Source: Dermabacter vaginalis (lineage in GTDB: Bacteria; Actinomycetota; Actinomycetes; Actinomycetales; Dermabacteraceae). From it: a stretch of 64,000 bases of DNA. The notes beneath the pieces are model-generated. The model did no database searches. It saw only the letters and a program-made list of their open reading frames with translations, and was not told the origin of the DNA. Location: assembly GCF_001678905.1 (NCBI RefSeq), contig NZ_CP012117.1, positions 1,798,001 to 1,862,000 of the forward strand, given 5' to 3'. A program made the position numbers and the translations under genes. Shown here piece by piece: positions 36,273-38,706 of the stretch (position 1 is its first letter; each line of letters begins with the position of its first letter).

Positions 36273-36989
36273 TCACCGCGCAAGGAGCACAAGCTCACCC
36301 TCGCGGGCTTCGATCGACACATCCGCGAGTGAGGGGATCACGAGATCAGCGAGGGGGCCGACGGTACCTTCGCCCGCGCTGTTGAGAACACTCACGACAA
36401 AGGCCCCCGCCGCGCGAGCCGACTCGAGACCGCCCGGAGCATCCTCGACCACGAGGCAATCCTTGGCCTCAACGCCAAGCCGCTCCGCCGCGAGGAGATA
36501 GGGCTCGGGATCGGGCTTGCCATGCGTGACCTGGTCCGCCGTCACAAGAACCAAGGGAAATGGGAGCGAGAGGGGCCGATAGCGCGCCTCAAAGAGAGGG
36601 CGCGTACAACTCGTCGCGATTGCCCAGCACTCGCGCGAAAGCGCTGCCTTCGCCTTCTCGAGCTCGCTGAGGAAGCGCGCGGTGCCGTCAAACGCCTCGA
36701 CGTCGCCCGCACTCGCGATCTCGTAGCCCTCGACCCGGCTGAAGAGTTCCTCGAGTCTTTCTTCGCTGATTTCGGGTATTGCGAGGCGCAACACCCGCCT
36801 CGCCGGTTGACCGTGATAATGCTTTTCAAACCGCCCCGCGCCCTCGTCACCGAGGAGTTTGTCCCAGCTCGCCTCGACGCTGCGCGTGGAATCGACGAGA
36901 GTGCCATCGGAGTCGAGAAGGATCGCCTTTGCGCGCGCGAGAACCGTTCCCGGTGCGCAATCGTCGAGTGTCGCCGCCTTGTGTGCCAC
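36273..36989 (-). CDS. HAD-family hydrolase (beta-phosphoglucomutase/sugar phosphatase type)
   Basis: A 238-aa haloacid dehalogenase phosphatase. Motif I is LLDSDGTLVDS near residue 25, motif III/IV are GKPDPEPYLLAAERLGV and CLVVEDAPGGLESARAAG near 155-180. A helical cap lies between. The subclass acts on sugar phosphates; the substrate cannot be read from sequence. The GTG start follows AAGGAG. It is 33 bp downstream of the SLH gene and may be co-transcribed with it and the SGNH gene. Confidence 0.9.
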   Translation of the reverse strand: MAHKAATLDDCAPGTVLARAKAILLDSDGTLVDSTRSVEASWDKLLGDEGAGRFEKHYHGQPARRVLRLAIPEISEERLEELFSRVEGYEIASAGDVEAFDGTARFLSELEKAKAALSRECWAIATSCTRPLFEARYRPLSLPFPLVLVTADQVTHGKPDPEPYLLAAERLGVEAKDCLVVEDAPGGLESARAAGAFVVSVLNSAGEGTVGPLADLVIPSLADVSIEAREGELVLLAR

Positions 36990-37022
36990 GTGTGACTCCT
37001 TGGTCGAGGTGTGGACGCCCGC

Positions 37023-37778
37023 CTACCGGGCATCCTCGAAGAGGGCATTCGCACGCCGGAGCATTTCCGCGAACTCCCCTCTCACGAGGGTATCGTCCGG
37101 CCGGAATTGAGCGTCGACCACGGGCGAGGAAGCGTCGGACCCGCCCCCACCGGGGGCCTCGCGCTGCACGAGATCCCGCCCGAGAACCCCGGCTGCACGA
37201 GCCCACTCGATATCCTTAGACCGCGCGTGGGTCTCGGGTACGTCCACGAAGGAGTCGATCTCGGGTGCGAGCGCTGCGCCTCCCGCCGCGAGGTGTGCGG
37301 TAAGCATCCCGCGAAGCAGGCGCGCGAGGAAGGAACATCCCTCGGCACGCGTCACGGGCTCGGTCGGCTGGAACGTCGCGTCGTACTCTCCGAAGAACAG
37401 CGCCTGACCGCGCATCCACATGATTTCGCGGTAGCTTCGAGCCGTTTTTTCAATATCGCGGTACGGCTCGAGGTCGAGAGTTTCGCGCTCGGGAGCGCCC
37501 GCGAGCCGATAAAGCATGATTGCGGCGTCCTCGCGCGTGACATCGGCTCCTGGAAGGAACGTTCCCTCGCGCGCCGTGTCAAAAAGGTCATTGTCAACGA
37601 GCCATTGGATCGCCTCGGCGTATGTCCCCGAGGGGTCGGCGACGATCTCAGCCGCGGGCTTCGTCGCGGTCGCGGGCCGCAGCTTGAGCGCGGCAATCCC
37701 CGCGATCCCCACAAGCGAAGCGAGCAGCGCGCGTCGCGTCGTGATGAGACCCGCCGCGTCCGAACGTACCCCCCTCAC
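37023..37778 (-). CDS. Secreted S-layer homology (SLH) domain protein
   Basis: A 251-aa exported protein. The N-terminus has a twin-arginine-like signal (TTRRALLASLVGIAGIAALKL). Three SLH repeats follow, at about residues 48-95, 110-160 and 175-250, with the typical FLPGADVTREDAAIMLYRL and FRPDDTLVRGEFAEML phrases. SLH triplets bind secondary cell-wall polymers in Gram-positives. Nothing besides SLH is present. The GTG at 37778 overlaps the stop of the SGNH gene by four bases, so the two are translationally coupled. Confidence 0.87.
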   Translation of the reverse strand: MRGVRSDAAGLITTRRALLASLVGIAGIAALKLRPATATKPAAEIVADPSGTYAEAIQWLVDNDLFDTAREGTFLPGADVTREDAAIMLYRLAGAPERETLDLEPYRDIEKTARSYREIMWMRGQALFFGEYDATFQPTEPVTRAEGCSFLARLLRGMLTAHLAAGGAALAPEIDSFVDVPETHARSKDIEWARAAGVLGRDLVQREAPGGGGSDASSPVVDAQFRPDDTLVRGEFAEMLRRANALFEDAR

Positions 37779-38674
37779 GCCATCCACTTGAGCTCCTTCA
37801 TTTTCTCGATGAGCGCCCACGAGACAAGAAGGTTGCCCCACCCGCTCAAATGAATACCGTCGCTCCCCCTGAGCGGAGTCGGGACGATTCCCTGGTCGAG
37901 CTCGGTGCGCGTTTCGGTACGGTCCTGGAGCTTGAGCGAGGCAATTGGCTCCGCGCGAAGAGCCTCCTCGCTCGTCAGGAGGGCTTGCACATCCACGAAG
38001 CGGGCGCCGTAGGCGGCACGCTGCGCGGCGTTGACCGCATGGATTGCCTTGATTTTCTCGGGTGCATCGAGGTCATTTTTCGTGACCCACTGGCCGAGCA
38101 CGATCGCGTCCGTTTCCGGGGTGCGTGCCGCGGCAACAAGCCGCTCAACATCGCTCAGAACTCGCTCCCGCTGCACGATGTTGTTCTTGCCCGTCCACAC
38201 CACGTGGCGCCACGTCTCAGTCGTGGCTTTCCACGACGACGTGAATTCACCCGATGTGGCCGGGCCTCCGTCGGACTCAAAAAACCACTGATTCTCCGGC
38301 GTACCGGTAAGCGTTCCGCTCACCCCACTCGACAGCCGCCCGTGGCACGTGAAGGACCACATTCCCGGGACATCCGCGTCCACGCGCACCTTGACGCGTC
38401 CGCCGCGGTACCCCTCCGGGATATGCACCATGGGCGTGTCGAGTCCACGAAGAATCGTCGTGTGCCCCGAAAACTGCGCGCCGTACGCGAGATTCGTGAC
38501 CGGGACGGGGTTCATTGCATTCGCAACTTCCTCGTGGACGTATACCGGTCGAGGCGTGTGCTCGGCACCGAGACCGCCTTCCATCGAACTCGAGCCCCAC
38601 AGGGCGAGGGGCCGCTCGGGCGCGAGTGCCGCGAACGCGCGCGCAAGGGCATGCGTGGGCGGGTTCTCGGGCAT
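37775..38674 (-). CDS. SGNH/GDSL-family hydrolase
   Basis: A 299-aa protein of the SGNH esterase/acyl-hydrolase fold. Block I is LWGSSSMEGG near residue 25 (Ser nucleophile), block III resembles WTGKNN near 160, and block V DGIHLSGWGN near 275 supplies Asp/His. A beta-rich insertion (residues 70-150) separates block I from the rest. No signal peptide is visible, although the neighbour is exported. Start ATG follows GAGGAGG. Coupled to the SLH gene; a role in acylation or deacylation of wall polymers is inference. Confidence 0.78.
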   Translation of the reverse strand: MPENPPTHALARAFAALAPERPLALWGSSSMEGGLGAEHTPRPVYVHEEVANAMNPVPVTNLAYGAQFSGHTTILRGLDTPMVHIPEGYRGGRVKVRVDADVPGMWSFTCHGRLSSGVSGTLTGTPENQWFFESDGGPATSGEFTSSWKATTETWRHVVWTGKNNIVQRERVLSDVERLVAAARTPETDAIVLGQWVTKNDLDAPEKIKAIHAVNAAQRAAYGARFVDVQALLTSEEALRAEPIASLKLQDRTETRTELDQGIVPTPLRGSDGIHLSGWGNLLVSWALIEKMKELKWMA

Positions 38675-38706
38675 AGGGCAGAGCCTCCTCGGGCAAGCGT
38701 GCGGGC

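Follow-up and report, generated by a model that had tools for sequence, protein, structure and literature searches.

What are an SGNH hydrolase-type gene and the gene of a stand-alone SLH protein doing between dapB and thyX in Dermabacter vaginalis, a skin-associated actinobacterium? The locus lies in a stretch of 64,000 nucleotides (contig NZ_CP012117.1, positions 1,798,001 to 1,862,000; hereafter the window) of a closed 2.39-Mb genome, labeled G000. A preliminary description had proposed that the SGNH, SLH and HAD phosphatase genes form a single cassette for wall-polymer modification, which interrupts the thyX/dapB neighbourhood. All three genes were confirmed as minus-strand open reading frames (n = 3; Table 1), and the order on this strand is dapB, SGNH, SLH, HAD, thyX, dapA, rnj and ftsK, the last two being named by eye.

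Table 1. Features of the SGNH-SLH locus (positions within the window)
Feature	Position	Strand	Remarks
SGNH gene, esterase/acyltransferase-type enzyme	37775-38674	-	299 aa, without signal peptide; ORF
SGNH ribosome-binding site AGGAGG	38684-38689	-	
SLH-fold partner gene	37023-37778	-	251 aa if started at the GTG that overlaps the SGNH stop; ORF
Alternative SLH start GTG, in frame	37785-37787	-	gives 254 aa
HAD phosphatase gene	36273-36989	-	context only, outside the SGNH-SLH unit
Coupled SGNH/SLH junction	37775-37798	-	AAGGAG 37793-37798, alternative GTG 37785-37787, GTGA 37775-37778
Tat-like signal of the SLH protein	37686-37736	-	twin arginine 37731-37736, core ALLASLVGIAGIAAL 37686-37730
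Ser29 codon, presumed nucleophile (WGSSS)	38588-38590	-	
Asp272-x-x-His275, Block V (DGIHLSGWGN)	37850-37861	-	

The SGNH and SLH genes are joined by a stop/start overlap of 4 nt, GTGA, just as originally described. The ribosome-binding site of a GTG 9 nt upstream of the overlapping one is better spaced (AAGGAG, 5 nt ahead of the GTG), and the true overlap may therefore be 13 nt. The open frame of SGNH (L101) has a single possible start codon; in the compared loci, start codons were picked by eye or by a simple score. The window SGNH is 91% identical to its counterpart in Dermabacter hominis NBRC 106157. Between Dermabacter species, the dN/dS values of the SGNH and SLH genes are 0.06-0.16 (0.06-0.09 for SGNH alone), indicating that both are real genes.

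HAD homologues were found in 46 of the 47 genomes of the family (Dermabacteraceae) and dapA in 45. Of the 44 genomes that have both, 43 keep HAD within 6 kb of dapA, and in the 44th (G016) the two are on separate contigs. The same distance from SGNH is kept in only 4 of the 36 genomes with HAD and SGNH, all four belonging to the window's own genus. One genome (G045, locus L103) has the order dapB-HAD-thyX-dapA with neither SGNH nor SLH gene in between; the insertion thus consists of the SGNH and SLH genes alone, placed between dapB and HAD. HAD is part of an old dapB-HAD-thyX-dapA neighbourhood and an ordinary neighbour of the pair. Since outside its own genus it tracks dapA and not SGNH, we rejected it as a member of the unit, and with it the three-gene cassette. 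The proposed interruption of the thyX/dapB neighbourhood stands for the SGNH and SLH genes and falls for HAD, which is native there.

SGNH has a match in 37 of the 47 family genomes. We examined 36 SGNH loci from 34 of these 37 genomes, leaving out G027, G031 and G032. Co-occurrence in relatives, which the preliminary description had suggested checking, was found for two of the three genes: the SLH partner is the next gene downstream in 33 of the 36 loci, and HAD is not included in this association. In L098 the partner was recognized by a tblastn match only and is excluded from the 33, and SGNH is without an SLH partner in L095 and L100. In all paired loci but L069 and L070 (31 of 33), the SLH gene has a start that overlaps SGNH. 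The unit, then, is the SGNH-SLH pair, conserved and overlapping across Dermabacteraceae, whose genomes are related and hence not independent samples. At the order level 28 of 396 genomes matched SGNH, 26 of them from the family; at the class level both matches among 394 genomes came from the family, and no SGNH locus was gained outside it. One viral contig (L167) matched as well. The SLH protein has a match in 45 of the 47 family genomes, so the view that SLH proteins are uncommon in actinobacteria fails for Dermabacteraceae. In Brachybacterium the pair sits at another place than in the window.

Some loci show further features. In 22 of the 33 paired loci (within L070-L102), the pair is followed by a gene of ~1,180 aa (N-terminus AYLRHPDV, tricorn-protease-like by eye), which was not seen in Dermabacter. 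A two-ORF transposase-type insertion (L096:7281-9769, genome G009) splits SGNH and leaves the downstream SLH partner intact; the inserted ORFs resemble an IS21-type istA/istB pair. In L098 and L099 (genomes G003 and G028), frame changes have left SGNH in pieces, with the SLH partner sequence persisting downstream. With SGNH split in one genome and frame-broken in two others, the pair is dispensable. Since in all three loci SGNH is broken and yet the partner remains, the latter may have a role of its own.

The window SGNH has no Pfam or NCBIfam match above the cut-off; its sub-threshold Pfam matches are DUF459 (E 0.012) and Cu-oxidase_2 (E 0.004). For the homologue in L164, GDSL_2 remains below the threshold (18.5 versus 32.9 bits), and NCBIfam provided no usable name for either the SGNH or the SLH protein. 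In an alignment of 25 homologues S29, N164, D272 and H275 are invariant and G65 is nearly so; Asp272-x-x-His275 is also invariant in a 19-member alignment. Assigned by position according to the block scheme used in PMC9487903, these residues correspond to the superfamily Ser (Block I), Gly (II), Asn (III) and Asp-x-x-His (V). Ser29 of the WGSSS motif, the presumed nucleophile, would occupy the place of GDS in phage homologues. Judged by these alignments, SGNH appears to be a serine esterase or acyltransferase with intact predicted catalytic residues. Its AF2 model (pLDDT 90.4) features a beta insertion between Blocks II and III. Among solved structures (PDB), no convincing relative was found by sequence. 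Foldseek with the full-length protein returned nothing from PDB at E 0.001; what it listed was mostly pyruvate kinase noise, followed by TesA and PatB. A role in anti-phage defence was considered and dropped, as PADLOC gave no match for the SGNH, SLH or HAD protein.

By structure, the closest relatives of the enzyme turned up among phage tail proteins. The profile of phrog_11419 (tail fibre protein) matches all 19 aligned SGNH members. The search against predicted viral structures (BFVD) yielded 14 matches at E < 0.001 (best E 2e-16, TMq 0.74), with TM-scores on the query of about 0.7-0.78 for the leading ones; among them are tail and minor tail proteins from phages of Arthrobacter, Gordonia, Rhodococcus and Clavibacter. 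The tail-fibre domains of these actinophages (Gordonia Patos gp4, Arthrobacter Arcadia gp18, Clavibacter CMP1-33 and CN1A_49) resemble the host SGNH in the whole fold, and share with it both the inserted beta part and the catalytic blocks, with an identity of about 15-20% in structural alignments. Tblastn of the window SGNH against phages gave nothing at E 0.01, and the link is visible only by profile, by structure and through a tail protein of G349, a genome from another family of the order. There, prophage-like tail genes with the same SGNH domain occupy L161:578-2964. The G349 tail protein matches 39 phage records, all at less than 60% identity, one of which, CMP1-33, is annotated as a structural protein with MALDI-TOF evidence. 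Unlike the phage domains, the window SGNH is a separate host protein outside any virion; no tail genes were present among the neighbours searched, and dapB and thyX are housekeeping genes. Being of the actinophage tail-fibre kind, SGNH probably has an acylated glycan of the surface or wall as its substrate, and it is best read as a putative enzyme of extracytoplasmic glycan.

In the pair, the partner is the protein that carries the signal. The AF2 model of the partner (pLDDT 80.7, residues 1-37 low) matches the three-repeat SLH trimers of Sap (3pyw, E 2.3e-7, TMt 0.75) and SpaA, and the twin arginine occupies residues 15-16, upholding the description of an SLH triplet with a twin-arginine-like signal. 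Pfam recognizes two SLH repeats in the window partner (E 9e-16), three in L127 and L131, and none in the Brachybacterium partner L114. The twin arginine is followed by a weakly hydrophobic, Ala-rich core (ALLASLVGIAGIAAL) and then by basic KLRPATA. Brachybacterium partners (L071-L092, e.g. L073:8011-9015) start with a basic motif of about MALRRPAAPRLRAGRPG, separated from the RR signal by a Pro/Ala-rich tail of variable length.

The RR signal is a general property of the partners. As controls we used 58 other proteins from these loci for which an N-terminal hydrophobic segment had been called. An RR within 14 aa of the hydrophobic core was found in 33 of 33 partners versus 13 of 58 controls, and its strict form in 31 of 33 versus 7 of 58 (Fisher p 2e-14 and 3e-15, respectively, relatedness ignored); an earlier, narrower RR window had captured 29 of the 33 partners. 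Tat assignments throughout follow motif and hydropathy. The window genome encodes TatC (E 7e-51).

SGNH proteins show the opposite pattern. Breaks in L096 and L099 leave 31 of the paired loci with an intact SGNH, and 30 of these 31 proteins have no hydrophobic N-terminal stretch (KD15 <=1.52 over the 100 aa before WGSSS). The sole intact paired SGNH with its own signal is that of L069, where the gene overlap is also lost; in L070, the other pair without an overlapping start, SGNH has no signal of its own. All three unpaired SGNHs have their own RR signals: LSRRSVLAVAGS in L095, LTRRGLGRALLGAS in L100 and TTSRRALMLGALA in L164, the first two coming from the family and the third from G165, which belongs to another family of the order. 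Own signals are thus present in 3 of 3 unpaired versus 1 of 31 intact paired proteins (Fisher p 7e-4, relatedness ignored). In a tree of 40 sequences the unpaired SGNHs fall in three separate places, L164 and L100 outside the paired group and L095 beside L069 in the Dermabacter clade, although the tree is midpoint-rooted and the branches of L095, L100, L164 and L167 are long, so that such joins may be false. It looks like one signal has been traded between SGNH and the SLH partner.

A profile search for the partner in 16 hand-chosen genomes agreed with this distribution. Full-length partners (228-271 bits) were detected in G000, G001, G020 and G036, all with an intact, signal-less pair. The 10 SGNH-less genomes in this hand-chosen set had no full-length partner (partial matches of <=120 bits in nine, nothing in one), and G042 and G165, whose SGNHs have their own signals, gave only partial matches, likewise <=120 bits.

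We propose that SGNH and SLH make up a two-gene export module in which SGNH is carried by Tat on the signal of its partner, a proposal that we regard as evenly poised between right and wrong. The signal-less SGNH would fold in the cytoplasm and bind the SLH-fold protein made from the same message; the twin-arginine signal of the partner would then take both proteins through the Tat translocase. Outside, SGNH would remove, or less likely transfer, acyl groups on a surface glycan, and the partner may afterwards hold it at the membrane or wall. We infer hitchhiking from the signal-less SGNH, the RR-bearing partner and the unpaired homologues with their own signals; complex formation, Tat export, the glycan substrate and the direction of the reaction are the inferred parts of the model. 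Against it stand L069, which retains the partner despite the SGNH's own signal, L070, where the pair has neither an overlapping start nor a signal on SGNH, and the three loci in which the partner outlasts a broken SGNH; simple hitchhiking also leaves the long cytoplasmic N-tail of the Brachybacterium partners unaccounted for.

Most documented cases of hitchhiker export by Tat involve cofactor enzymes, and such export is hard to recognize from sequence. The reports PMC4273604 and PMC10924467 are in line with the bias towards cofactor enzymes, and the latter makes the point on sequence for tail-anchored cargo. The nearest parallel is found in Streptomyces, where MelC2 hitchhikes on MelC1 (PMC2758597). 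MelC1/MelC2, like SGNH-SLH, is a two-gene actinobacterial operon of a signal-less enzyme and a small partner with a Tat signal (PMC2758597). However, the protein families differ, the MelC helper also loads copper whereas SGNH has no known cofactor, the helper gene comes first in melC and the enzyme gene first in SGNH-SLH, and the melC genes are mostly non-overlapping whereas those of the pair mostly overlap. In E. coli HybOC and PaoABC a signal-less subunit is exported together with a Tat-signal partner (PMC4273604), as proposed here, but these are cofactor redox enzymes, and SGNH needs no cofactor as far as is known. The titles and abstracts listed by literature searches contained nothing on an SGNH-SLH pair or on SGNH hitchhiking via Tat.

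A wall-polymer unit without HAD would explain the pair differently: the SLH protein would be exported alone and anchor to a polymer that SGNH modifies. This is improbable in our estimate, although it draws on the SLH trimer fold of the partner and on its residues. Among partners, R82 (the repeat 1 Arg) is invariant and G130 (the repeat 2 Gly) almost so, and by position they correspond to two of the three ligand-contact residues of SpaA (PMC6081394); with both kept, some ligand binding is possible. By eye, the window protein has Arg in all three repeats and Gly29 in repeat 2 only, but the conserved Trp13 was not seen, and the L114 partner even lacks a Pfam SLH match. The preliminary description had recommended a search for a CsaB-type pyruvyltransferase elsewhere in the genome; it was run, and polysaccharide pyruvyltransferase (PF04230) has 0 matches in G000, which also encodes no other SLH protein. 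PF04230 is present in 42 of the 47 family genomes; G041 is likewise without it. In G039 and G040, sister Dermabacter genomes, a PF04230 gene is found with canonical SLH repeats no more than a few hundred bases away (L169; L168:9478-11000). The genus thus includes members with the usual SLH-pyruvyltransferase system, and genomes that lack this system still keep the pair. The partner shares the three-repeat fold with Sap/SpaA, but it is small, stand-alone and RR-bearing, Trp13 was not seen in it, and its genome has no pyruvyltransferase. Classical S-layer anchoring by the SLH protein is therefore unlikely in the window organism, and the claim that it binds a wall polymer finds no support there. 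Anchoring also leaves open how a signal-less SGNH reaches an external polymer. The role of a signal-bearing export partner is better supported for the SLH protein than that of a polymer anchor, and had no place in the preliminary description.

Alternatively, SGNH might stay in the cytoplasm, docked on the cytoplasmic N-tail of the SLH membrane protein, and have as its substrate a precursor at the membrane's inner face. The missing signals of 30 of the 31 intact paired SGNHs would fit, as would the basic N-tail motif of the RRPxxPRL type, conserved in 24 of the 33 partners. We nevertheless consider such docking doubtful: the own genus keeps the pair and yet has no such motif, three unpaired homologues have RR signals of their own, and the relatives closest to SGNH in structure are proteins of virion tails. 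The last two observations point outside the cell.

A further possibility concerns the reaction: instead of an esterase, SGNH would be the transferase arm of an O-acyltransferase system supplied with acyl groups by a membrane AT3 protein. AT3-SGNH fusions do use their SGNH domain for transfer, and AT3 proteins can supply SGNH proteins with acyl groups (PMC9558356). G041 has an AT3 gene (PF01757, E 7e-22) directly after SGNH-SLH. The viral contig has one (E 5e-28) after its SGNH tail gene, and G000 has two AT3 matches. Such a system is nonetheless unlikely, because all 47 genomes have Acyl_transf_3, with or without SGNH, and because among the loci listed AT3 adjoins the pair only in G041, the only one in which the neighbour was tested with Pfam. 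For the latter reason we also discarded AT3 as an obligatory partner. Known systems show the same difference: in OatA and OafB (AT3-SGNH O-acyltransferases) and in PatA/PatB, SGNH catalysis takes place outside the membrane, as proposed for the window enzyme, but no membrane acyltransferase is fused to the latter or consistently found beside it; Foldseek matches PatB weakly (E 0.03). On the viral contig itself, the SGNH-domain tail gene and the following AT3 gene (L167:3677-6480) possibly make up a phage esterase/acylase pair.

Returning to export on the partner's signal, a broader and very unlikely extension is that Dermabacteraceae domesticated a receptor-modifying esterase of phages. The enzyme would be exported folded on a repurposed SLH escort and would deacylate the cell's own glycan, altering or hiding the receptor of those phages that use the same esterase domain on it.

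The pair links a conserved host enzyme of Dermabacteraceae to phage tail enzymes. It also suggests that bacteria whose walls lack a pyruvylated polymer have a second use for the SLH fold. Finally, with some lineages carrying the signal on the enzyme itself and others on its coupled partner, this enzyme family offers a natural experiment on how such a pair originates.
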